Source: Prosthecobacter debontii
GTDB lineage: Bacteria; Verrucomicrobiota; Verrucomicrobiia; Verrucomicrobiales; Akkermansiaceae
Length of the DNA: 64,000 bases
Assembly: GCA_945869465.1 (NCBI GenBank)
Contig: CAMBPB010000006.1
Span: 19,896 to 83,895 of the forward strand
Reading direction: 5' to 3'
Positions 20,132-34,822 of the stretch are shown piece after piece. The notes beneath the pieces are model-generated. The model did no database searches. It had not been told where the DNA came from and saw only the letters and a program-made list of their open reading frames with translations. Position numbers and translations under genes: made by a program. Numbering within the stretch: position 1 is the first letter of the stretch; each line of letters starts with the position of its first letter.

Positions 20132-21646
20132 TCATTCGCCCTGAATGAATTTCACGAGATCGGCGCGGGTCTTCACCAGATCGGGCGGATTCAGATAGAA
20201 CATGTGACCGCCGTCATAGAAAGTCTCCGTGATGTTGCGCTTTGCGCCGGCCGGCAGATCCAGCAGATGGCGGAGCGAATAGGACACGCCTTCCGGCGGG
20301 GTGGCAAGGTCGGTACGGCCGCCCATCACCAGCACCCGGAGGTGCGGGTTGTCCCGCATCGCCGCAGCCAGTCGATCGCCGACGTTGACCACCTCGTTGT
20401 TGGCGTTCCAGCGCCACGGCTGGACCTTGCCCGTTAGAATCTCATAAGGCTGGTCCTCCTTGTATCCCAACTCGCGCCCGAGGTAATCCATCATTGCGGT
20501 GGAAAAGGCACCGAAGGCCAGCGAGAAGGAAGGATCATACTCCGGTGTCGGTGAGGATTTGCTGGTGGAATCCCATGCGACCCGCGCATCGAAGCGACCC
20601 AAGACCTTGCCCTCGGCGCGGAGCAGTTCGCCGCGGAAAAAGTCCAGGCCGATGCGAAGATCGTAGGTCAGCCACGCGTCGGCGGAAATGCCGGTAAGGC
20701 GCGCCAATTTGCCGGCGATCACCTTGCGCGTTTCCGCGTCCAGCGAGTTTCCCTTGAGCAATGCGCCGGCATATTCACCGAAGGCGTACTCGGTGCTCTC
20801 CTTGATCAGCGCATCACGGTCGCCGGTGATTTTCTTGTGGAAATGCGCCGTGCCGGTGAATGACGGCAGATAGACCATGGAACTGACGTCGTTGCCCGAT
20901 GCGGACCGGAGCGTGGCGAAATCCAGCAGCGACGAGAGCAGCACCACGCCATTGAGCTGCATGCCGTAGCGGGATTGCAAATGGTGGGAAAGCCCGGCGG
21001 CGCGGATTCCGCCATAGGATTCGCCGAGAATGTATTTGGGCGACGACCAGCGGTCGTGCTCGCCGAGCCAGCGCCGGATGAAGTCGCCGACCGACTCGAT
21101 GTCTTCCTGGAGACCATGGAAATCAGCGGGTTTGGTGTCGTTTTCCGCCCGGCTGTAGCCGGTGGAAACCGGATCCACGAACACCAGATCGCAGACGTCC
21201 AGGATACTCATCGGGTTGTCCACCACGCGGGTCGGCGGTGGCGGCGGGGCGGTTCCGTCACCGGGCAGCTTGACGATTTTCGGCCCGAGCACGCCGATGT
21301 GCAGCCAAACCGCCGACGAACCGGGCCCCCCATTGAACGCGAACAGCACCGGGCGATTCGACGTATCATTCACATCCGTGCGCTCATAGCTGACGTGGAA
21401 AATCGAGGCCCGCGCCTTGCCGTCGTCCTGCTTGAGTTGGAGTTTTCCCGTCGTGACTTTGTAAGGGATCTTTTTCCCGCCGATCTCGACCGAGGCTTCC
21501 CGGACGATCGGTTCGACGACCTTGAGCGTTTCCTTGTCCTTCTCGGTGGATTTTTCTTTCGGCGGCGTGTCCGGCTTTTTCTCCGGTTCCGGAGCGGCAA
21601 CGGCGGTGAAGTTGAGGCAAAGCAGCAGGAGAAGGGTGAAGCGCAT
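20132..21646 (-). CDS. Peptidase S10 family (serine carboxypeptidase-like)
   Basis: PVLFAFNGGPGSSAVWLHIGVLGP, DPVSTGYSRA, ILGESYGGIRAAGLSH; signal peptide. Confidence 0.92.
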   Translation of the reverse strand: MRFTLLLLLCLNFTAVAAPEPEKKPDTPPKEKSTEKDKETLKVVEPIVREASVEIGGKKIPYKVTTGKLQLKQDDGKARASIFHVSYERTDVNDTSNRPVLFAFNGGPGSSAVWLHIGVLGPKIVKLPGDGTAPPPPPTRVVDNPMSILDVCDLVFVDPVSTGYSRAENDTKPADFHGLQEDIESVGDFIRRWLGEHDRWSSPKYILGESYGGIRAAGLSHHLQSRYGMQLNGVVLLSSLLDFATLRSASGNDVSSMVYLPSFTGTAHFHKKITGDRDALIKESTEYAFGEYAGALLKGNSLDAETRKVIAGKLARLTGISADAWLTYDLRIGLDFFRGELLRAEGKVLGRFDARVAWDSTSKSSPTPEYDPSFSLAFGAFSTAMMDYLGRELGYKEDQPYEILTGKVQPWRWNANNEVVNVGDRLAAAMRDNPHLRVLVMGGRTDLATPPEGVSYSLRHLLDLPAGAKRNITETFYDGGHMFYLNPPDLVKTRADLVKFIQGE

Positions 21647-21734: not shown

Positions 21735-22775
21735 TCAACCCTTGCTCATCGCCCCGATTTCATCGCGGACCATCTTGGCAAACTCCGGCGGCCCCAGCAC
21801 TTTGGCCTGACTCCCGAAACTCAGCACCCAGCGCAGGACCTCCTCCAATCGTCCGACTTCAAATCTCACCTCTACCCGCGTGCCTTTGGCATTCAGCGCC
21901 ACACACTCCTGCGTCGGATGCCAACGGCGCTCCTGGCCGAGCCTTGCCGCGTAATTTTTCAGTTCCACCCGCACCAAATGCCGGGTCGTATCGCCCTCCA
22001 CATTCCAAACGCCAAACGATCGCTTCAAATGCTCGCCGCCGTTAAAGCCAGGCGGACGTTCAAAGCGTTTGTTTGAAACCTTGATCCGATTCATCCGCGG
22101 CAACGCAAAAGTCCGCAAGGCGTCGCGCGCCAAGTCGTGGGCGATCAGGTACCAACCGCCATCGACCTCGCCGAGATGCAGGGGTTGGACCCGCCGGGGT
22201 TCGGCACTTTCCGCTCCCAGTTTTCGGTAATAAAATGTTGTAACAAGTTGTTGAAGAATTGCTTGGGCGATTTCCCCAAGGCGTTTGAGGTCACGCGGAT
22301 CCTGTTCCAAGACCTTGCGCGAGAACGCCTCGTCGAGATCATTCCAGGCGAACTGGATCTTTCCCATCATGCCGCGAGTCAGGCTGCTGAAGGCCGTCCG
22401 CAACACCTCGGCCAAGGGAGTTCCGCGGACGGATTGCAGGGCGTTGCGAGCCAGAAACAATCCCGCCAGTTCTTCGGCGGTGGTTTGGAACACCGGGAAA
22501 TCGGACACATCCTTGGCGTAGGAATAGCCGTGCAGCGCGTCCACATAGACGATGGGCAGGCCGAGTTCGTCGCGCATGAAACTGACGTCGCGCTGGATCG
22601 TTTTGCGTTCGACCGAAAGTTTTTCCGCCAGCACCGTGCAATTCGGATACGCGCCGCTCTTGATCGCCGAGTGAATCTCATAGATCCGGAAGAGCGGGCG
22701 TCGCGTGATTCCAACACGCTCACTTGCATCGTCCAGCAACTTGGCCAGGTCGTTTTGAATCCGGTTCATTTCCAT
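21735..22775 (-). CDS. HTH + WYL domain transcriptional regulator (YafY-like)
   Basis: N-term wHTH CTVLAEKLSVERKTIQRDVSFMRDELGLPIVYV; WYL-like GWYLIAHDLARDALRTFALPRM. Confidence 0.88.
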   Translation of the reverse strand: MEMNRIQNDLAKLLDDASERVGITRRPLFRIYEIHSAIKSGAYPNCTVLAEKLSVERKTIQRDVSFMRDELGLPIVYVDALHGYSYAKDVSDFPVFQTTAEELAGLFLARNALQSVRGTPLAEVLRTAFSSLTRGMMGKIQFAWNDLDEAFSRKVLEQDPRDLKRLGEIAQAILQQLVTTFYYRKLGAESAEPRRVQPLHLGEVDGGWYLIAHDLARDALRTFALPRMNRIKVSNKRFERPPGFNGGEHLKRSFGVWNVEGDTTRHLVRVELKNYAARLGQERRWHPTQECVALNAKGTRVEVRFEVGRLEEVLRWVLSFGSQAKVLGPPEFAKMVRDEIGAMSKG

Positions 22776-22953: not shown

Positions 22954-25900
22954 TCAAGCAGCCGTGTTGGTTTTCGACAAAACGTCAGGTGCGGCAGTCG
23001 ATTTGCGCACCCGCTTCATCGCGCCCATTGCTCCGACCAACAGGCAAAGCAGGATCGCCAGCCAGGCGAAGCCGCTGTTTGTGCGTTTGAGTTGGAGTTC
23101 GATGGCCATCGGGTGCTCGCCGTCCACTTGCACGCTGCGGCCGAAACTCAGCACGGTGCCGCGTTCCGGCATCGTGACTTCGAGCGCGGCGGGTGCGGGT
23201 TCGGCAGCGAGTTGTTGGGTGACGATGCGGTTGGCGATCTCCTTGAGCGCGGAGTTTTCATCGGCGGAGTTGCCTTCGAGGAAACGGTCGAATTGTTTGG
23301 GATCGTAGTTGTAGGCGCCGCGCAGCACCGGGTTGACCTCGGCGGCGCGGTCGAGCTGCGCGTTTTCCGCCTGTGGCGGAGCGGCCAGGCGGTTGTCGAG
23401 ACCCACCCGCTGGCGGCGGGTGTTCAGGCCTAACACCGCCTGCTGGGTCTTGAGCTGGCGCAGCTGGACGCGCGCGTCCTCGCCGGACGCCGCGTCGAGC
23501 TGGCCGTTGCGCGTCGCGTTGCCGAGTGCGAGGCCGGCCTTTTCCTGATCGCCCGCCTTGAGCCAGGCGTTCGCCTGATCCAGCAGGGCCACTGCGCTTC
23601 TGGCGCCGCTCGCGCGTTGGCCGGTCACGAATGACTGATAGTCCTCGAGCCGGAACGAACCGACCGACTGCTGTTGTTTCAGATCGAAATCCCCGCCGTG
23701 ATCGGCGAGCCGCCAGCCTTCCGGGACCAGCACCTGCCATGTTAGATTTTCCAGCGGCACGTCGAGCACCGGCCCTTCGAGCCGTTTGCCGCGCACCATC
23801 GCGGCGGAATAGACAAAGCGCACGACGGTTGGCTGCCCGACTTCCGGCGACGGAAAGACATGGAACAACCAGGCCCCGCCCTCGCGAACCAGCGTGGCAC
23901 CCTCGTCGTTCACGAACACGTTGAACAACTCGGCCTTGTCCGGCAGCGTGAGCCGCAGCGTGCCTTTGCCGACGACCCGCATCTTCATGCGCACAGCCGT
24001 TAGAGCATCGCCGCCCGGCGCGAGCAAGGTGGTGAGCGAACCCTCGGAAACCCGCAGTTTGCGCAGATCGGCGAGTTTGTGGCGTTTTAAAATGACCGGC
24101 AGCGGCCCCTCGGGATCGGCGACGCGGAAAGCCATGGTCGGCGCGACTTTGCCCGCCGCGCGGCCGAGTGTCGATTGAACCACCGCCCAATCCGTGCGCT
24201 GCCAACCGCGCGGCAGCGCGCCGGCTTCGAGTTCGAGCCGCCCCCCTGCCCTGACGGCGGCGAAGTAGGAAATCGGCCGGACATTTTCCAGCACCACTGG
24301 CTCCACCGACTCCTCGCCGCCGTCCTTGCCTGGACGTTGATACTCGAGTTCCACATCGGTTTCACCGGCGAGCCCGCGTTGGAAACGGATTTCATACAGT
24401 CCGGGTTCCCCCTCGACCGGAATCAGATCCGAAACCGCGGAGCCGGTGGCGCGCACGGTGGCGGCGGCGGTGGGATCGAGTCCCGCAATCCGCACCCGCT
24501 GGGACTTGACCGCAGCGTTTTCGATTCGATAGCCGATATGCACCCGCGAAAGCAGCTGCCCCTCGCGGATTGTGGCATCATGGAAAACCCGCGCCGTCAC
24601 CCAAGGTTCGAGGCGGCTGATTGATAGACCGAGCGCCCAATCGCTTTGCAACAACCGATAGGGCAAGGCGCCGGGCCGGGCCGCGGCGCGCGCGGATTCT
24701 TTCGGTCCGTCGGCAAGTTCGTGGGGATCGAGTTGCAACACGTATTTCCGCTCCACCGCACGCACCTGCAAGCCGCGCTCGGGAACCACCGTGAGCACGC
24801 CGGTTTCGCGGGACGCGTCGCGCAGGCTGAGGCGCGGCACCATCCATTTCTCCTGCGCTCCGGTCGGCTGGCCGGTGAGGGTGAGACTGAACTCACGGCG
24901 TCCCATCGTCTTGCCTGATAGATGAAAGGTCACCACCCGCTTGCCGTCGATTTTGCCCTCGGTCCAGTGGCTCAGGCCCTCGCCGGTGGCGCTCTCGATC
25001 TCGAGGTCCTCCGGCACGTCTAGCGCGAGGCGGAACACCCCGGAGCGCGTGATTGTCACCACCAGGTCGGTGGCCACCACCAGGCGGTCCTCACCTAACG
25101 AAACGAGCTGCCATGACTCTGCCCGCAACTCGGGAGCCACCTCGGTGACCTTGAGCTTGGCCTTCACCGCGCTCGCGCCGTAGCGGAACGCATGCTGGAG
25201 CAGCGCCAGCGGCTGGCCGTCCTTGGTGTGCGGCAGCAGCCGGTTGTTGAAATCCTCGGGATTGACCCGCGAAAGGCCTTCCACTGCGACGGCTTCCGGC
25301 TGCACTTCCTCGCCAAACGCGATTCCTAACAATCCGACCTCTCCCGCCGAGCCTTCCACACGGACCGGTTCGAGTTCCAGCTCCAGCGGCAGGGAGCCGG
25401 CCCCGCGCTGGGTTTCGATGGTGAACGAAAACCCCTGATTCTGGGCGGGCTCCACGCTCACCCGCAGTTCGAGTTTCGCCGGATCGAAGCGCCACGCGCC
25501 GACCGGACCATCGAGCACGTCGCTGACGGTGAAGCCGGCGGGGATCTTCATCGTTAGAGAAGTCACCCGGCCCTGCGCGGGGCGGATGTTCACTGCGTGC
25601 CGGCCGTTCACTACGCCCGGCCCGGGGAGAAACAAATTGGAAACCTCGGCGAAAAACTTCGATTCTTCGGTGTCCGCGTCCCGTTGTTTCGGGCGCGCCC
25701 TGATGATCACCGGATCCACCGGCCCGAGCACTAACATGGCTCCGCTGTGGTCCGGCTTCAGATCCGCGAGCGGCTGGATTTTCGCGGCGCCCGGACAGAA
25801 AAACTCCCAGCCGCCCTGATCCCAACGTAGCGTCACGCGCCGCATCGCGGCCGGAGCGCCAGGCACCTCCCAGCCTTGCAAGGGATCCGTCAGGGGCATT

Positions 25901-28900
25901 TCAAACACCGCCTTGCCAGTCAAACGCCCCGCCTCATCGGCGATCAAGCCATAGGCGTTGCGGCCCTCGCTCCGCATCTTGACGATTCGCAGCCCCTCGC
26001 CCTCAAAGCGGCTCAACACCGCCGGTTCACGCAGTAACAGGAATCGGTCCCCTTCTTCCGCCCGCAACGTCACCTCCACGGAACCGTAAAGCCGCCCGTC
26101 GCGAATCTGCCAGTCGTGGATCATCGATTCCGCGGGTTTCATGCCCGGGATTTCCGCGGCTTGCGCGTTCCATGGCATCAGCAAACCCAGCGCCACGGCA
26201 GCGACCACGGCTTCCACGGGTCCCGGTTTCCGCAGCCCGTCAATGGTTTGATAGATCCGGGGAGCCAGCCAGACCAAGCCCACCAGCGCGACGATTCCGC
26301 AGAACAACGGCGCGCCGCCGCGAACCGATAGAAACGAGGCAACCACCAGGGCAAGTCCGCAGCCGAGCCACCACCGGTCCCGCCGAAGCAAGCCGCGCAG
26401 CGCCACCACGGTCCCCAGCAGGAAGCCCAACCAGACGCCCCAGCCGGTGCGGGCCAGCCACACCGGAACATTGCCGATTTCCACTGCCACCTCGCCATCC
26501 GCCGCCACCACGGGCGCGGCGTATTCCAACACCGCCGAACTCCCGCGAGCGGTCGCTCCGGCCGACACGCCGAGTCCCGCCGCCAGCACGACAAACAGCA
26601 GCCCGAGCGCCAGCACTAGGATTTTTCTAACACCAAATGGGTTTCCCCTGCCCAGCGTGATCGCCGCGAGCCCGGCTAACAACAGCATCGCGGCGCCACC
26701 GCGGCGTTTCGCGAGCCACTCCCAGCCGCTCTCCGCGAGCACCGGTTTCACGAGATCGGCCGTGCCGCCGCGCGGGACGAGCTGGCGGCCCTCGTCGCCG
26801 GTGATCATCCACTCGCCGATCACCACCGGCGCGTCGAGTCGGGGCGCTACCAACCGGAGGTGCATGGCCTTGTCAGCACGGGCGCCATAGAGCAGGGAAA
26901 CCTCCACCGCCTGATTCGGATCCGCCTGCGAGGGCAGCGGCACCAATGTTTCCCCACCGTCGGCACGGGCGTTCACCGCCTCGCCATTGACCTTCGCCTC
27001 CCACAACACAGCTCCCTTTGGAAACACCATGCGCAAGGCGCTGCGACCGCGGGTCTTCACGAAAATCCGGGCGTCCGTCACCCACTGGCCGTCGCGCGAG
27101 ACGCGGCTGGTGAGCTTTTGAAAATCCACCACCTGACCGACGGTTTCGCCGGGTTCGAACCATTCGATTTCCATGCCGATCTTGAAGTCCCGCGCCGTGT
27201 ATTGCCACGCGCCCAAGGTGGGAGCGCTGCTCAGCAGGCGGAACTCGGCGGGTAGCTCGGTGGAATCGATCGCTAACAAAGCACCCTCGCTAACAGACTT
27301 GTGGTTCACCTGCAGCGGGCTCACCACCTGCACAAATCCCCTCTCGCCCTGGACCCCGAGCGGGCTCACCTCGCCGGGTGATAGCTTGCCGCCGTGCGAA
27401 CTCATCGGCTGTTCGAATGTTAGGAGAAGCGTGCCAGTGCCGAGCACCGGCCGCGACAGCGGCACGATCACCGTGTTGCCATCACGCCGCCAGTCGCGGC
27501 CCACGCTCTGGCCGGTGACGTCGATGTTGCCGATCGCCTCGGGCACCGAGATCTTCCATTCGGTCGCGGGCGATCCGACCACGAAGAAGTTGATCAGGAC
27601 GCTGCCATAGACCGCTCCCGCCTTGAGCGAATAGAGGTGAAACACGTCCGCCTGGATGTCCTGGCCGAGCGCTTCCACGGCGAGTCCCACCGTCCACGCG
27701 TCCTCGCGCAAACGGAACGCCTGCTGCAAACCCGGGGTTTTCTTCGGGAAAAACGTGATCGGCACTTCGGCGACGCCGGAGGTCTTGACGGCGGTTAGAC
27801 GATAACCGGCAGCCGCCACCGCGCCGATGTATCCGCGGCGCGATTTAACGCCCGGGAAGCCGAGCGGCTGAAGCGCCCACGGCCCGGCCTTGGCCGCTTG
27901 GTTTTTCTCAAGGCGCACGCTGACGAGTTGGCGGTTGATCACGGGTTGTTTGAAGAGGATCTTGAGCTTGCGTTTCCCGTCCTTGATGTCGCCCGCCACC
28001 GCGTAGTCCGCGACTTCGGCACCGGTCACGGCCGCCACCGCGTGGTCGGCGGGGATTTCCAGCTCCCACTCGCGCAACGGCGCTTCGCGGATGTCCAGTT
28101 CCAAGTCCGTGGCAATCCGGCGGTCGGTCTCGGCCAGTTCGTAAATCGTCACTTCCGTTAGGCCGACCTCCGGCAGCACTTGGTTGGAGTTGACCGCGTA
28201 GCCGTATTCTGCCGAGGGAAACCGATAGACAAACACCTGCCGCAGCTTTTCATCCACGCCGCCGGGGAATTGGCCGGGCGCGAGCTGGATCAGACCCTTT
28301 GCATCCGCCACTTCGATTCTCACCGCGCCGTCATTGGCCACCCGCAGCCAGCCGCTGTGACGCAGCGCGCCGATTGGCGCCATGCGCAGCGACTCCGCCT
28401 TTACGGGGAATCCACCCAGCGCCACCTGCGCTTCGATGACCACCCGGGCCGCGCCTTCGAGGGGCCGGCTCAACTTCACTTCCAGCCGCCGCTTGCCGTT
28501 TGTTTCCCTAACCGCCCAACCGAGCACCGGCTCGCCGGCCACCGACAGCACCTCGCCCGGGCCATCGAGTGTTAGTATCAGGTCGGCGAGTTTGCCTTGC
28601 AACACCCGCAGGTCCACCACCGTCATCTGCCGCAGCAGGCCGCTGCCAACTCTAACATCCGTGGTTTCCGTGCTGGAGAAAAACAGCGCGCCATCGGCCA
28701 CCTTGTCGGCCGTGTGCCAGCCCATCGAGGTCAGCCCGCTTGCCGGGAGGAACCCGCGCCAGAGTTTGTCGGCAAACTCCGGCACCACCGGCAGGGACTT
28801 GTCAAACGCCACGCCGCCGGCCAGACCGTCGATGGTCACCGGCACTACCACGCCGGCGGGCAGGCTGAAGGCCAGCGTCCGCCAATCATCCTTACGGGTC

Positions 28901-29886
28901 ACCGGCACCTCGAAAGCCAGCTCGATGGGAAACTCGCCTTCGCGTTCGGCGACCAGATCGTAGATCCAGGCAGCGTCCTTTTTCCGCAGGACCACGTGCC
29001 AGCCATCGCCGGATACCCCTTCGGTAAGCGCCGCGCCGCCGGCTAACAACTCAACGGCGGAACCATCGCCCAGGGAGCGCGCGGTGCCCGTGAGACGGAA
29101 GGAAACACTGCCACCATTGTCCGACACCTTGCCTGCTAGAGAGGTGTCCATGACCTCCAGCCCGCGGGCGTCGGTGCCGGCGGGTGAGACAGTCATTTTC
29201 ACCATGGCGGCCGCGGTCCCCACGAATTTGGCGCCCGCCGAAACATTCTCAAATCCCTCGAACTTGGCGTTCCGCGCGCCTTCCACCGGCACCAGTCCAT
29301 CCGCCTGGGTCATTTTCAAGTCCACGCCGCGATCGATCGCCATGGTCACTACCAACGAAAACCCGGTGGCATTTCCCGGCCCCACCAGTAACAATCCGGC
29401 ATTTTCCTTTTCAACCTTCTGGCGGGTTTTCACCAGCACTTGAAACACGGCGGAAATCTTGGGTTCCACCTCGACCGGGCGGACATCGAGAAACCGTTCG
29501 CCGTTTTCCGCAACCCGCACCGACCAATCGCGCAGCCCGGTGCCGGTGACTTCCGTCACCTCGCCCGGTCCGTTGAGAGCCAGCGTGAGGATTTCGGCTT
29601 TGCCTTGAAGCACGCGGAAGGTGATTTTCTGTTCGCTGGTGATGGTCTCCAGCCCGACGCGGGCAATCACTTCCGCCGATGCCGAGAAAAACACCGGGGC
29701 CTCCTTCGGTGCCTTGGACCACGGGATGAGCACGACGCGTTCATCGGGTTCCTGGGCGTGGAGGAAGGGGGCGAGGAGCATGGCGATAAGGAGAGTGGAC
29801 ATTCCATTCCACAGCCTTTCCTGCCTTTGCTCGGGACAGGAATGTCCCGGCTCCTCATGGTCGTTCCGTTCGCTTGTGGTTTTCAT
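22954..29886 (-). CDS. Giant (about 2300 aa) internally duplicated secreted/membrane protein of unknown function
   Basis: Single continuous ORF; signal peptide MSTLLIAMLLAPFLHAQ (possible start 29802); hydrophobic helices around 26150-26700 followed by an AQAA signal-like site; C-terminal TM FAWLAILLCLLVGAMGAMKRVRK; beta-rich repeats. Confidence 0.85.
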   Translation of the reverse strand: MKTTSERNDHEEPGHSCPEQRQERLWNGMSTLLIAMLLAPFLHAQEPDERVVLIPWSKAPKEAPVFFSASAEVIARVGLETITSEQKITFRVLQGKAEILTLALNGPGEVTEVTGTGLRDWSVRVAENGERFLDVRPVEVEPKISAVFQVLVKTRQKVEKENAGLLLVGPGNATGFSLVVTMAIDRGVDLKMTQADGLVPVEGARNAKFEGFENVSAGAKFVGTAAAMVKMTVSPAGTDARGLEVMDTSLAGKVSDNGGSVSFRLTGTARSLGDGSAVELLAGGAALTEGVSGDGWHVVLRKKDAAWIYDLVAEREGEFPIELAFEVPVTRKDDWRTLAFSLPAGVVVPVTIDGLAGGVAFDKSLPVVPEFADKLWRGFLPASGLTSMGWHTADKVADGALFFSSTETTDVRVGSGLLRQMTVVDLRVLQGKLADLILTLDGPGEVLSVAGEPVLGWAVRETNGKRRLEVKLSRPLEGAARVVIEAQVALGGFPVKAESLRMAPIGALRHSGWLRVANDGAVRIEVADAKGLIQLAPGQFPGGVDEKLRQVFVYRFPSAEYGYAVNSNQVLPEVGLTEVTIYELAETDRRIATDLELDIREAPLREWELEIPADHAVAAVTGAEVADYAVAGDIKDGKRKLKILFKQPVINRQLVSVRLEKNQAAKAGPWALQPLGFPGVKSRRGYIGAVAAAGYRLTAVKTSGVAEVPITFFPKKTPGLQQAFRLREDAWTVGLAVEALGQDIQADVFHLYSLKAGAVYGSVLINFFVVGSPATEWKISVPEAIGNIDVTGQSVGRDWRRDGNTVIVPLSRPVLGTGTLLLTFEQPMSSHGGKLSPGEVSPLGVQGERGFVQVVSPLQVNHKSVSEGALLAIDSTELPAEFRLLSSAPTLGAWQYTARDFKIGMEIEWFEPGETVGQVVDFQKLTSRVSRDGQWVTDARIFVKTRGRSALRMVFPKGAVLWEAKVNGEAVNARADGGETLVPLPSQADPNQAVEVSLLYGARADKAMHLRLVAPRLDAPVVIGEWMITGDEGRQLVPRGGTADLVKPVLAESGWEWLAKRRGGAAMLLLAGLAAITLGRGNPFGVRKILVLALGLLFVVLAAGLGVSAGATARGSSAVLEYAAPVVAADGEVAVEIGNVPVWLARTGWGVWLGFLLGTVVALRGLLRRDRWWLGCGLALVVASFLSVRGGAPLFCGIVALVGLVWLAPRIYQTIDGLRKPGPVEAVVAAVALGLLMPWNAQAAEIPGMKPAESMIHDWQIRDGRLYGSVEVTLRAEEGDRFLLLREPAVLSRFEGEGLRIVKMRSEGRNAYGLIADEAGRLTGKAVFEMPLTDPLQGWEVPGAPAAMRRVTLRWDQGGWEFFCPGAAKIQPLADLKPDHSGAMLVLGPVDPVIIRARPKQRDADTEESKFFAEVSNLFLPGPGVVNGRHAVNIRPAQGRVTSLTMKIPAGFTVSDVLDGPVGAWRFDPAKLELRVSVEPAQNQGFSFTIETQRGAGSLPLELELEPVRVEGSAGEVGLLGIAFGEEVQPEAVAVEGLSRVNPEDFNNRLLPHTKDGQPLALLQHAFRYGASAVKAKLKVTEVAPELRAESWQLVSLGEDRLVVATDLVVTITRSGVFRLALDVPEDLEIESATGEGLSHWTEGKIDGKRVVTFHLSGKTMGRREFSLTLTGQPTGAQEKWMVPRLSLRDASRETGVLTVVPERGLQVRAVERKYVLQLDPHELADGPKESARAAARPGALPYRLLQSDWALGLSISRLEPWVTARVFHDATIREGQLLSRVHIGYRIENAAVKSQRVRIAGLDPTAAATVRATGSAVSDLIPVEGEPGLYEIRFQRGLAGETDVELEYQRPGKDGGEESVEPVVLENVRPISYFAAVRAGGRLELEAGALPRGWQRTDWAVVQSTLGRAAGKVAPTMAFRVADPEGPLPVILKRHKLADLRKLRVSEGSLTTLLAPGGDALTAVRMKMRVVGKGTLRLTLPDKAELFNVFVNDEGATLVREGGAWLFHVFPSPEVGQPTVVRFVYSAAMVRGKRLEGPVLDVPLENLTWQVLVPEGWRLADHGGDFDLKQQQSVGSFRLEDYQSFVTGQRASGARSAVALLDQANAWLKAGDQEKAGLALGNATRNGQLDAASGEDARVQLRQLKTQQAVLGLNTRRQRVGLDNRLAAPPQAENAQLDRAAEVNPVLRGAYNYDPKQFDRFLEGNSADENSALKEIANRIVTQQLAAEPAPAALEVTMPERGTVLSFGRSVQVDGEHPMAIELQLKRTNSGFAWLAILLCLLVGAMGAMKRVRKSTAAPDVLSKTNTAA
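29776..29852. repeat. Composite palindromic repeat, copy A
   Basis: gagcatggcgataaggagagtggacattccattccacagcctttcctgcctttgctcgggacaggaatgtcccgg. Confidence 0.85.
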
Positions 29887-29974
29887 TTGATTGGTTCTAA
29901 CAATATTATTGCGGCACGTGCGTAAACGCCGTGTCAATTCGCTGGCGCTCCCTCCACTCCCCTCCCCTTTTGTA

Positions 29975-30466
29975 TTATTCTTTCTTCGGCTTCCCGTCTG
30001 CTTGCGGGGTTGCCTGCTCCGCCTGCTCTTTCGTTAGAACCGAGAGTCGGGTGATCGGACGTTCCGGAAATTTGGAACCTGCCTGGGTGACGTAGTCGTG
30101 GTTCCATTGCAAACGAACCAGATCGCCGGGCTTGAGGGCGAGGATGGCATCCCGAATGGCGGCGGGCACCTTTGGGTTCTTCAGGTTGTCCTCGATGAGC
30201 ACGAGAAAGCGCGCCTGTTTCGGATCGCCGTATTCTCCGGGTTTTTCGTAACTCAGGTATCTGACGATGTCGAAAGTGGCGAGTTTGCCGGATTCCCCGC
30301 AGCGGTCCGGGCAGAGGGAGGTCCTGCCCATGCACTGATGATCCTTCAAACCCGTGAAGCGGGCGACGGTTTCGTGTGCGGATAACAACTCGCGCTGTTT
30401 TTCCGGGGCGGGTTCCTGGGCAAACGTGATGCCGGAGAGCATAAGGGCGATAAGGAGCGTGGACAT
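29975..30466 (-). CDS. Small secreted protein of unknown function
   Basis: MSTLLIALMLSGITFAQEPAPEKQ signal peptide; C-terminal basic-domain-like GDLVRLQWNHDYVTQAGSKFPERPITRLSVL; longer in-frame starts run through a palindromic repeat. Confidence 0.65.
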   Translation of the reverse strand: MSTLLIALMLSGITFAQEPAPEKQRELLSAHETVARFTGLKDHQCMGRTSLCPDRCGESGKLATFDIVRYLSYEKPGEYGDPKQARFLVLIEDNLKNPKVPAAIRDAILALKPGDLVRLQWNHDYVTQAGSKFPERPITRLSVLTKEQAEQATPQADGKPKKE

Positions 30467-30512
30467 TCCTGTCCACCGTCTTCCCTGCCGGTGCTCGGGA
30501 CAGGAATGCCCA
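30437..30512. repeat. Composite palindromic repeat, copy B
   Basis: gagcataagggcgataaggagcgtggacattcctgtccaccgtcttccctgccggtgctcgggacaggaatgcccac; near-copy of A. Confidence 0.85.
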
Positions 30513-30602
30513 CTCTTCTTAGGCTTCGCAACGATTCGGTGGGATGCGGTTTTCATTTTGATAGGGGGAGATGGCGGCGGGCAGGATGCCCGCGCCACCT
30601 GG

Positions 30603-33600
30603 TTAGAGCGATTCGATCATGTGTAGCACTTCGGCCACGCGGCCGTTGTGGCCGTAGAACTGTTTGACGTTGGCGCGGGGCGCGGCGAGTTGTTTGAAGT
30701 CGATGGCTTCGGCGAGCGGGCCGCCGCGGAGTTTTTCGGCGGCGAGCATCGCGAGCACGGCCAGTTGCATGGGAGGCGTGGCGCGATCGAAGGCCGGGGC
30801 ATTGGCGTCGTGAGGAATCGTCCAGGTGCGCTCGACCATTTCACCGCGGGTGGTGTCGTGGAAACGCACGCTCACTTCGCCGAGTTCGCCGTTGCCTCCG
30901 GGGAGCGGCTCGACTTGATAGACGGCGACACCGGCCTCCTCGGCGGCGAGCTCGGCGGCGTCCACCGCGTCGTTGCGGAAGTCCTCGGTTTTCAGACGGT
31001 CCTTTTCGAAACCGATCAGTTTGTAGCGTCCCACGCGCTCCGGATTGAACCGTACCTGCACCTTGACGTTCTCCGCGGCGGGCCGGAAGGCACCGGCGAG
31101 CTGCTTGGCGAAGTTTGCATCGGCACCCTTGCCGACCACGTAATAGCGGCCGTTGCCGTTGCGGGCGAGCTCGCCTAGCAGTTCATCGTTGAGTCCGTCC
31201 GCGGCGATGCCTGCGATGTCGAAGGCGATGCCTTTCTGGCGCAGGGCTTTGACTTTTTCCGCGAGGCGCGCGGGATCGGCGTTGCCGAGGTTGGCCGCGC
31301 CGTCGGTGAACAGCACGATGCGGTTCTGCGCGCCTACCAGTTTACGGCGATCCGCCAGTTGTTCGCCGAGCTTGATGGCTTCCTCCAGATTGGTGCCGCC
31401 TTCGCTGGCGGATTGGTTGACGAGTTCGGCAAGTTTTCCGGCTTTTTCGCTCGTCCAGCCATCGGCCAGCAGGCGCGGCGTTCTGGAAAACCCGATCACC
31501 GTGACCAGGTCATTTTTGGTAAGCAAGCCGGCGAGTCCAGCCAGCGCCTTGTCCATCGCCGCGCGGCGGTCCTCGCGCACCATCGAGCCGGACTGATCGA
31601 CTAACAAGGTGAGCCGCAGCGGTTGCGAGGCGGCACGTCCGGCGGCCGCGGTCTTCAGCGCGACCCGCACCAGGTTGCGGCCGGGAATGACCGGATGGGC
31701 GGATTGTTCGATGGCATGGGCCACCGGTTCGCCGGCGGTCGGCGCGGGATCGCCGTAATCCACGGCATTGTAGAACTGCTCGACCTTGATGCCCGCCAGA
31801 TCCGGCCGCTCGCCCTTGGCCAGCGCGGCCTGTGCGATTTTGAACGAGGCGTCGCTGATGTTGAGGGAGAAGGTGGAATAGGGGTCTTCGGTGGCGACGA
31901 TTTCCTCCATCAACTCGGCGAGATTGGGCTTGGGCTTTTCCGGTTCGGGCGCGGCAGATGCACCCGACAGTTTCAGTTTCATCTGTTGGAGAAGCGCCTG
32001 GTCTTTCTCGAATTCTGTCTTGGCATCCACGAAATCCTGCGCGTCGAGTCCGCGTTTGATCGCCTCTTCGCGAGTCTCGTCCTTCATCGCCTGAACGGAC
32101 TTCAGCCGATTGCTGGCAAGATCGAGTTGGGCTTCCATCGTTGCTTTGAGATTTGCCGTCCCTTCGTCGAGTTGGCGCTTCATGGTCGCGATTTTTTCAT
32201 TCGCGGAGCGGACCGTCGAATGATCATTGCCAAGCCCCTTGATCGTGAGATTCTCTAGCTGACGCTTCGCCTCCAGATACTGGGGATAGAGGTTTTTGAC
32301 GATATTGTCTGGCAGAGCAAGACCGCTCGCATAGGTCATCAATTGATCGTTCTCATACTTTTTCATGCTGGCGATCTGGCTCTCCAACTGGGACTTGTCC
32401 TGCTCAAGCTGATGGAACGTCAGCAATGCGTTCCTGGCACCTTGGTCCTCGTCCACTCCGGAGCTGCCGAAAAACGAGTCGGTTCCCTTGTAGATGATGC
32501 CTTTGGTGCGGACAATGGTCGCGAGGACCTTGCGGCGCTCCTCGACTTTGTCTTCCTGATCTTTGATGGCTTTGAGAACTTCCTCCAAACTAGCGGCAGG
32601 TTCTTCCCTCTTATCGACGATCCTTCCTCTGATCGGAGAAAGGTTTTCGATCCGATCTTCTGCGGTCAATGCGGGGTTCGATTGAATGGCGTCGGATAAC
32701 TCCTTGGTTTTTGCTCCCGGTTCAAGGGCGGCAAGGGCGTCGTGTGTGGCGATTTCGGGTATAGCGGGTGTCGGCTTCTTGGTTTCGGCAACATCCCGAT
32801 TAAACAGGCGACCCAACACGGGAATGTCCCCCATCTGGGGAGCTTTCGCAGCGGATTCCTGTTCCTGTTTCGCTTCATCGGGCGAACTCATTTCATCGTC
32901 AACGTTGTTCGGAGCGGACAGAACGGTATCGATGTTCGCCTTGGCGACCGCTTGATCGCCGCTGCGAAGGCCGCTGGTTGCACCCGGAAGCGTGGTGGCG
33001 GGTTCGGGAACGGCCGCCGCGGCGAGTTGTGGCTGCCCGGCCGGTGCGGCAGGTGGTGGGGGTGGTGGTGGGGGTGGTGGTGGTGGGGGGGGTGGACTGG
33101 CGCGGGCGGACGATTTGTGCTGCTCGCTCCTAGCCGAAAGATGTTCCTCCTCGCCCTCGGCGGCGGAATCCCGTTGGTTGGCGGCAAGTCTCTTTTGTTC
33201 TTGGGCGAGCTTGTGCATCGGGGGCACGATGCGAGGCCGGGCTTGGCGGCTTTCGGAGACTCCCCCCCAGCCGGAACCGAAACCGTCACCACTCCCAACA
33301 TCCATGGAGGGAGTCACAACATCGACATCCGGGATGGGCACCGCCGTGGGCGATGCGGTATTGGCGGCAATTGCTTTTGCCATGGGTGAAACCGGGGCAT
33401 CCGACTTATCGGCTGGGGGTGCGGGAGAACCCGCCGGAGCCGCAGCCAAGGCGGGACGGCTGGCGGCAGGTGCCGATGGTTTTCTATCCGAAACCGACGA
33501 TCTGCCGTTGACGTCATTTTTCGCGAGTTGGTCCGTCGCATCCGCCCGGGAGGTCCGACCGGCGGGTCCATTGCCAGGTTGCTCAAGGTTGGGAACATTC

Positions 33601-34136
33601 ATCGGCTTGGGAGTGCCCTCGATGAGTTCGGGAGGAAGGTTGGTGGCGAGGGGCACACCGCGAGCGGTGCCTTCTATAGATCTGTCATCTCCACTTTCCG
33701 CCATGTAGGATATAGTCTTTTCAGGCTCGCGAATGGTTTGTGGTCTAATCCAAATCGGGTTGACCATCTGTAGAACAACCACGGCCAGAACGACACAAGC
33801 CGCGATGGCCAACAACGCTCTGCGACCGCTGCGTCGTATGCGAAGTTCCTTTTGCGGATCGAGGCGGATGGTTTTCTCCGCCCCGAAGATCTCATCGAGT
33901 GCCTGGCGTTTTTCCGGCGGGAGTTTCCATCCCTCGTCGGGTTGGGTGGCTTCGGCTTCGGTGAGCAGGCCGTGGAGGGCGCGCATGCGGCGGCGGAAGA
34001 CGAGCAACTCGGGACGCTCTTCGCAGAGGCGCTCCAATTCCGCCGCTTCAAAGGCGGAGGCCTCGCCAAGCACCCAAGCCACGATCCGGGCTTCAACCGG
34101 TTCGTCGCCAACGGCAGTAAATGGAGAGTCGTTCAT
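30603..34136 (-). CDS. VWA (YfbK-like) membrane protein with anti-sigma-like N-terminus, poly-Pro tract and coiled coil
   Basis: TLLVDQSGSMVREDRRAAMDKALAGLAGLL (MIDAS), DPYSTFSLNISDASF..KVEQFYNAVDYGDP and C-terminal DUF3520-like part; N-terminal EARIVAWVLGEASAFEAAELERLCEERPEL, then a TM helix. Confidence 0.9.
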   Translation of the reverse strand: MNDSPFTAVGDEPVEARIVAWVLGEASAFEAAELERLCEERPELLVFRRRMRALHGLLTEAEATQPDEGWKLPPEKRQALDEIFGAEKTIRLDPQKELRIRRSGRRALLAIAACVVLAVVVLQMVNPIWIRPQTIREPEKTISYMAESGDDRSIEGTARGVPLATNLPPELIEGTPKPMNVPNLEQPGNGPAGRTSRADATDQLAKNDVNGRSSVSDRKPSAPAASRPALAAAPAGSPAPPADKSDAPVSPMAKAIAANTASPTAVPIPDVDVVTPSMDVGSGDGFGSGWGGVSESRQARPRIVPPMHKLAQEQKRLAANQRDSAAEGEEEHLSARSEQHKSSARASPPPPPPPPPPPPPPPAAPAGQPQLAAAAVPEPATTLPGATSGLRSGDQAVAKANIDTVLSAPNNVDDEMSSPDEAKQEQESAAKAPQMGDIPVLGRLFNRDVAETKKPTPAIPEIATHDALAALEPGAKTKELSDAIQSNPALTAEDRIENLSPIRGRIVDKREEPAASLEEVLKAIKDQEDKVEERRKVLATIVRTKGIIYKGTDSFFGSSGVDEDQGARNALLTFHQLEQDKSQLESQIASMKKYENDQLMTYASGLALPDNIVKNLYPQYLEAKRQLENLTIKGLGNDHSTVRSANEKIATMKRQLDEGTANLKATMEAQLDLASNRLKSVQAMKDETREEAIKRGLDAQDFVDAKTEFEKDQALLQQMKLKLSGASAAPEPEKPKPNLAELMEEIVATEDPYSTFSLNISDASFKIAQAALAKGERPDLAGIKVEQFYNAVDYGDPAPTAGEPVAHAIEQSAHPVIPGRNLVRVALKTAAAGRAASQPLRLTLLVDQSGSMVREDRRAAMDKALAGLAGLLTKNDLVTVIGFSRTPRLLADGWTSEKAGKLAELVNQSASEGGTNLEEAIKLGEQLADRRKLVGAQNRIVLFTDGAANLGNADPARLAEKVKALRQKGIAFDIAGIAADGLNDELLGELARNGNGRYYVVGKGADANFAKQLAGAFRPAAENVKVQVRFNPERVGRYKLIGFEKDRLKTEDFRNDAVDAAELAAEEAGVAVYQVEPLPGGNGELGEVSVRFHDTTRGEMVERTWTIPHDANAPAFDRATPPMQLAVLAMLAAEKLRGGPLAEAIDFKQLAAPRANVKQFYGHNGRVAEVLHMIESL
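33051..33095 (-). repeat. CCA/CCC proline codon repeat (15 consecutive Pro)
   Basis: Plus strand aggtggtgggggtggtggtgggggtggtggtggtggggggggtgg read as 15 Pro codons on minus strand. Confidence 0.95.
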
Positions 34137-34240: not shown

Positions 34241-34822
34241 TCAGCCATCGGCTGATTCGATGCCGAGGCGGCGGAGGGAGTCGGCTAGATTTTTGAGGGC
34301 GTGGTGGAGTTTGTAGCCGACGTTGCCGATGCTGAGGCCGGTGCGTTGGCTGATTTGCTCGTACTTGAGATTTTCGTGGTATTTGAGGCAAATGAGAGCG
34401 CGGTCGGCGGGGTCGAGTTCGGCGAGCAGGAGCTGGAGGGTGCCGAGGGCTTCGAGGCGGCCGAGGGATTGCTCGGGATCGGGCGCGTCGCTGGCCAATT
34501 CGTGGATGAGGTCGGTGGAGGTTTCGCGGCGGTGGTCACGGAGGTGGTTGAGGGCGAGGTTGCGGATCGAGCGGAAGAGCCAGGCGCGGGGATTGACGAC
34601 CTCATCCCAGTGGGCGTGGAGTTTGAGGAAGGCTTCCTGGACAAGGTCTTGTGCGGTTTCCCGCTGGCCGAGCAACCCGTAGGCGAAACGGAGCAATGGC
34701 GATTCCTCCGTTTCGAAAACCTGTCGGAGTGTCGGTTTATCCTCCATGGGGGCTCGAAACGGGATCACCGGATTGCGTCCGGTTTTAGCCATTGGATGGG
34801 CGGTGGCGGTCATTGTTTCCAT
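34241..34822 (-). CDS. RNA polymerase sigma-70 factor, ECF subfamily
   Basis: LLRFAYGLLGQRETAQDLVQEAFLKLHAHWDEVVNPRAWLFRSIRNLALNHLRD and region 4 ALICLKYHENLKYEQISQRTGLSIGNVGYKLHHALKNLADSLR. Confidence 0.95.
   Translation of the reverse strand: METMTATAHPMAKTGRNPVIPFRAPMEDKPTLRQVFETEESPLLRFAYGLLGQRETAQDLVQEAFLKLHAHWDEVVNPRAWLFRSIRNLALNHLRDHRRETSTDLIHELASDAPDPEQSLGRLEALGTLQLLLAELDPADRALICLKYHENLKYEQISQRTGLSIGNVGYKLHHALKNLADSLRRLGIESADG

Follow-up and report, generated by a model that had tools for sequence, protein, structure and literature searches.

A predicted giant envelope protein of two paralogous halves encoded beside an ECF sigma factor and a VWA protein in Verrucomicrobiota and Planctomycetota

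Background

The reverse strand of the window analysed here (the whole stretch of 64,000 nucleotides of Prosthecobacter debontii DNA) carries a giant gene at 22954..29886, and the question raised by this locus is what its 2310-aa product is: whether the two halves are copies of one protein, whether they stay on one chain, and with which partners they act. The giant had zero matches over the curated cut-offs of Pfam and NCBIfam and no match among PDB sequences; scattered weak Pfam/NCBIfam matches were obtained for C-half members, in a few members only. A preliminary description had read the gene as the duplication and fusion of an uncharacterised beta-sandwich protein. Many sigma factor systems of PVC bacteria are uncharacterised, and the giant is a specific candidate for the sensory input to one of them.

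Methods

The family profile was built from 16 orthologues (15 of them near-full-length sequences from related genomes, 36-80% identical) and compared with itself by HMM-HMM alignment, reversed and column-shuffled profiles being used as decoys. AlphaFold2 models of each half were built with 16 natural orthologues. The operon scan was a single genome scan and covered 80 loci, from Akkermansiaceae, Luteolibacter, Haloferula, Opitutaceae, Rubritalea, Rhodopirellula, Stieleria, Aporhodopirellula and others. The loci with interrupted frames (L010, L020/L040, L113 and L117) were excluded from the split-gene evidence; the in-frame stops or frame changes inside their giants may reflect either assembly error or decay. 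A 5138-aa ORF in L134 was rejected as an artefact of masked bases (N) translated as Ala.

Results and Discussion

Layout of the giant gene

The length of 2327 aa given in the preliminary description holds only for the TTG start at 29937 (ORF 22954-29937, reverse strand), and with the ATG at 29886 the protein has 2310 aa. Met29 at 29802 is perhaps, and on the sequence probably, the true start; residues 1-28, upstream of it, overlie a repeated palindromic element (see below). The ORF is conserved (matches in 32 of 59 relatives), and the fused relatives span two phyla. In the order of the protein, with all coordinates on the reverse strand, the predicted N-terminal signal peptide (residues 29-44, 29755..29802, MSTLLIAMLLAPFLHA) is followed by an extra module (residues ~59-240, 29167..29712), which is a copy of the module at 395-575, and by the N-half beta-sandwich array (residues 273-1050, 26737..29070), for which AlphaFold gives strands throughout. 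Five membrane helices predicted from hydropathy and AlphaFold (residues ~1062-1219, 26230..26703) then lead to an internal signal-peptide-like segment with an AxA site, NAQA/AEI (residues 1222-1243, 26158..26223; the slash marks the putative cleavage position here and below), the C-half beta-sandwich array (residues 1277-2074, 23665..26058), a strongly conserved helical region (residues ~2080-2227, 23206..23649) and a C-terminal membrane helix with a basic tail (residues 2272-2290, 23017..23073). The hydropathy profile thus recovered, besides the N-terminal signal-like segment, the elements that had been described before: the helix cluster (~1060-1220), the second signal-like segment (VEAVVAAVALGLLMPWNAQAA) and the C-terminal TM (2272-2290).

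Homology of the two halves and the repeated module

In the alignment of the family profile with itself, residues 273-1050 paired with 1277-2074 (probability 99.8, E = 3.5e-28) over ~744 columns (~770 in other counts) at a near-constant offset, and the decoys gave E values of at least 0.19. Profiles were required for this result, as a self-BLAST of the single giant sequence found no internal repeat. It could be argued that the halves are unrelated and merely carry common beta-sandwich domains of similar composition, since the fold search also returned integrins, complement and further generic proteins with beta-sandwiches and the single-sequence identity between the halves is only ~20%. However, the colinear match is lost in the reversed and shuffled decoys, and single-length relatives are colinear with both halves; this explanation is already disfavoured, and we regard it as highly improbable. 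The claim of two paralogous halves was thus borne out computationally.

The motif recurrence noted earlier within the N-half, between residues 91-125 (RVLQGKAEILTLALNGPGEV..., 29512..29616, reverse strand) and 427-461 (RVLQGKLADLILTLDGPGEV..., 28504..28608, reverse strand), scored 89 against at most 40 for shuffled sequences, and the self HMM alignment maps residue 91 to 427 and 120 to 456; by sequence it is a repeat at the level of the module. The likeness between an N-half and a C-half motif (596-645 and 1609-1656) was not significant between single sequences, with a score of 39 against 42 for the best shuffle and with 17 of 714 windows doing as well, but its residues are matched exactly in the family HMM alignment (598/1611, 610/1623 and 625/1638). 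Extra offsets of ~170-176 residues (429 to 600, 600 to 770, and 1610 to 1434) show that each half is a tandem array of ~170-aa modules; judged from these alignments, such a module, present several times per half, is the smallest repeated unit, and the proposed duplication needs to be refined in this respect. In many distant relatives the match to the N-profile begins only at residue ~214 or later; the first module (~59-240), which nearly duplicates 395-575, was therefore probably gained later in this class.

Predicted fold

Both halves were modelled by AlphaFold2 as all-beta arrays, with mean pLDDT of 76 (N) and 73 (C); the packing of the domains is unreliable at pTM 0.36-0.37. The N-half model ends with the five membrane helices, and the C-half model with the conserved helical region, a short beta piece and the single membrane helix. 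For both halves, the top-ranked Foldseek matches in the PDB were ribophorin I/Ost1 and integrin alpha, and the shared neighbours agree with the beta-sandwich fold proposed in the preliminary description. The global TM-scores are low, and we therefore take these matches as support for a shared beta-sandwich class and not for membership. Ribophorin I/Ost1 (8b6l chain O, 6s7o chain E, 6ezn chain A), the best match, also has beta-sandwich domains in a membrane-anchored protein, but the global TM-score is 0.13 (query) with 8-14% identity; the giant profiles gave no relevant PDB sequence match to ribophorin I, and no link between the giant and glycosylation was found. The thigh and calf legs of the integrin alpha ectodomain, the second group of matches, likewise form a long beta-sandwich stack on a membrane anchor; their TM-scores are 0.08-0.13, and no PDB sequence matched the giant. 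An integrin alpha would have a beta-propeller headpiece and homologous legs, whereas the model consists of consecutive beta arrays, and the resemblance is likely to be a fold-level analogy only. Matches of the N-half profile to DARPin/ankyrin sequences were set aside as chance, because they cover 41 residues of a region predicted to form beta strands.

Relatives with separate halves

Half-length relatives of 1162-1289 aa (L034-L039) are present in genomes of the same order, and their fit to the N-half (E = 1e-35) is about as good as that to the C-half (E = 2e-34). They are gene A, the first gene of a compact operon, and the next gene, B, belongs to the same family. B is fused in most genomes (~2400-2970 aa with a TM cluster in mid-protein in L035/L136 and L132; a double-length neighbour of gene A also in L149-L153), while in two genomes there are three consecutive paralogues of ~1200 aa (A, B1 and B2). 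In these two, B is split into proteins of 1201 and 1190 aa with an ATGA overlap (L036), or of 1470 and 1309 aa separated by a stop codon, a ribosome-binding site (GAAGGAG) and an ATG (L037/L133), and the second protein opens in both cases with a signal peptide of its own (MTCPRSFFPSLLAGVLIPWGAWA and MKSFAWLLVMAPLGSMA). Homologous halves are therefore encoded by adjacent genes in relatives, as the idea of a fusion had led one to expect. The A-B1-B2 proteins share with the giant the module array, the signal peptide and the C-terminal TMs, with B1 and B2 either separate or fused; they differ in forming separate clades and in having no adjoining sigma factor or VWA genes. By sequence, the split genes constitute a paralogous operon and are not direct orthologues of the N and C halves.

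In a quick maximum-likelihood tree, N, C, A, B1 and B2 each formed a group of its own with full support. Support for the deep branching order of these clades was only 90-91% in this quick tree, which leaves the descent of the halves relative to A, B1 and B2 uncertain. The N and C clades (100% support each) both contain Verrucomicrobiota and Planctomycetota, so that on this tree the N/C duplication predates the split of the two phyla as sampled, unless the gene moved between them. Taken together, the self-alignment, the folds and the adjacent homologous genes support the reading of duplication and fusion, with the N/C event placed at an early date. The evolutionary account that we propose for the giant runs from module duplication through gene duplication to a fusion that kept the signal peptide.

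The putative internal signal peptide

The segment GPVEAVVAAVALGLLMPWNAQA/AEI, ahead of the C-half, occupies the place at which the split relatives carry their free signal peptide. An AxA motif follows the last hydrophobic segment before the C-half in 66 of 77 fused relatives, which share ancestry and do not amount to 77 independent tests (typical junctions are TKA/QDF, ARA/QEV, AQA/QEL and AHA/ADS). The same rule, applied to control membrane segments of the same proteins, found AxA in 172 of 532; it is thus a loose rule, passed by 32% of the controls. The motif persists while the flanking sequence varies freely. Five membrane helices lie ahead of the internal signal in the giant, and three in the separate B1 and A proteins; an odd number of TMs would have returned the chain to the cytosol, a condition for an internal signal peptide. 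The conserved AxA and the internally kept signal peptide suggest that cleavage probably turns the product into two envelope proteins. Should this cleavage occur, the giant would be a cellular polyprotein processed by a housekeeping signal peptidase, and its two subunits would necessarily be made in equal amounts.

Alternatively, the giant may stay a single uncut chain, the internal segment serving as a sixth membrane helix in mid-protein and both arrays remaining on one polypeptide. The segment is just mildly hydrophobic, 11 of the 77 members have no clear AxA by the rule used, and the fusion is nearly universal in the giant family, which could mean that a single chain was selected. Since AxA is far commoner here than at the other membrane segments of the same proteins, and the split relatives carry the equivalent of this segment as a free N-terminal signal peptide, we consider an uncut chain rather unlikely.

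The operon with an ECF sigma factor and a VWA/YfbK protein

The gene at 34241..34822 (reverse strand) encodes an ECF sigma-70 factor (TIGR02937, 90.5 bits against a cut-off of 42.9) with Sigma70 region 2 and region 4 and without regions 1 and 3. It is followed by the gene of a membrane VWA/YfbK-family protein, a candidate membrane anti-sigma factor (30603..34136, reverse strand), which consists of a cytosolic N-region of ~105 aa, one TM, a VWA domain and YfbK_C. In Pfam, YfbK_C scored 79.1 bits and vWF_A 37.3 bits (cut-off 25 for each), and the VWA domain, which is above the Pfam cut-off, contains the MIDAS-like DxSxS motif as DQSGS together with GGT and TDG. A long proline-rich, coiled-coil-like linker extends from the TM to the VWA domain of this protein, and a 32-residue stretch (residues 423-454) is weakly similar to secretins. 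Its YfbK_C is the only one in the source genome.

In all 70 loci with sufficient upstream sequence, the VWA/YfbK gene is on the same strand as the giant and directly upstream of it, and in all 58 loci that reach far enough the VWA/YfbK gene is preceded by the ECF sigma factor gene; any other neighbour is shared by at most 10 of the 80 loci. Among 12 more distant Verrucomicrobiota loci, the three genes are kept in 8; the VWA gene is nearby and not adjacent in L139, and no VWA neighbour was found in L145, L148 and L154. One distant relative has two consecutive VWA/YfbK genes in the interval from the sigma factor to the giant (L142:9173-13630). A gene for a 207-aa protein stands between the VWA gene and the giant (29975..30598, reverse strand) in 3 of the 80 scanned loci and is not a constant part of the operon. 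The downstream genes at 20132-21646 (serine carboxypeptidase-like) and 21735-22775 (WYL/HTH regulator) are not conserved beside the operon elsewhere. A description of this operon was not found in the open-licence literature, and the ECF papers checked there make no mention of VWA or von Willebrand. Neither the operon nor the conserved internal signal-peptidase motif was part of the preliminary description. A family of ~2300 aa without a name, from two phyla, is now placed in a defined sigma factor and VWA operon.

The N-region of the VWA protein (~105 residues) and its one TM are conserved, a layout that is that of a membrane anti-sigma factor. This region had no match to the Pfam anti-sigma models, and 1 of 13 members gave a weak match (E = 0.026) to NCBIfam anti-sigma models. 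As in class I systems of the RseA, RsiW type, the gene adjoins that of an ECF sigma factor and encodes a single-TM protein with a small cytosolic N-region; the present operon differs in its VWA/YfbK periplasmic part, its fixed giant third gene and an anti-sigma domain that Pfam does not recognise. The protein resembles the YfbK family (PF12034, PF12450) in having vWF_A, VWA and YfbK_C above the curated cut-offs, and differs from it in the added cytosolic N-region, TM and long linker and in its fixed place beside the sigma factor and the giant. The system is a variant form of ECF sigma/anti-sigma signalling, in which the third partner is unusual and very large, and the sigma factor, the VWA protein and the giant most likely form one envelope-signalling unit.

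Proposed mechanism

We propose that two paralogous genes, each for an exported, membrane-anchored stalk of ~170-aa beta-sandwich modules, were fused in ancient times into a chain comprising a signal peptide, the N-array, five membrane helices, an internal signal peptide, the C-array, a helical region and one membrane helix. The internal signal peptide would have been retained as a working signal-peptidase I site, so that one chain from the ribosome would become two envelope proteins in the cell, like those of the separate-gene relatives. Both subunits would stand in the periplasm or an equivalent space, co-made with the ECF sigma factor and a membrane VWA protein that would act as the anti-sigma factor. 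The giant would then most likely be an envelope sensor or scaffold whose arrays contact the VWA domain outside the membrane and thereby control the release of the sigma factor. This overall picture of an ancient fused envelope pair, cleaved, within a sigma/VWA operon and serving as sensor or scaffold, seems to us somewhat better than an even bet. Its most specific form, a polyprotein from which signal peptidase yields two paralogous subunits that pair and act through the VWA protein on the sigma factor, is put forward tentatively and falls short of even chances; if true, the polyprotein would add to ECF signalling a third component that is conserved in both Verrucomicrobiota and Planctomycetota.

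The giant might instead be a structural or adhesive product that the sigma factor simply switches on, with no sensory action on the VWA protein. Among solved structures, its nearest folds are elongated beta-sandwich legs, for instance those of integrin alpha, and a target gene is often included in sigma factor operons. However, the order sigma factor-VWA-giant has been preserved in two phyla, where no further neighbour is fixed, and a signalling partner fits this at least equally well; we hold such a role to be unlikely, though less so than an uncut chain.

Distribution and a repeated element

A match to the giant was found in 32 of 196 evenly sampled Verrucomicrobiota genomes, and in none of the 17 listed genomes of another genus of the same family. 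The fused gene occurs across Verrucomicrobiota and Planctomycetota, downstream of the sigma factor/VWA pair. A repeated element, GGACATTCCTGTCC, lies at 29834-29847 (reverse strand), 30461-30474 (forward strand) and 30498-30511 (reverse strand), one copy extending to GGAATGTCC. The giant and the 207-aa gene both overlap this element at their 5' ends, which accounts for their similar starting residues (GHSCPE.RQ.R..GMSTLLIA). With 10 occurrences in the genome at no more than 1 mismatch, against 0 for the reversed control, the element looks by its sequence like a REP-type repeat.
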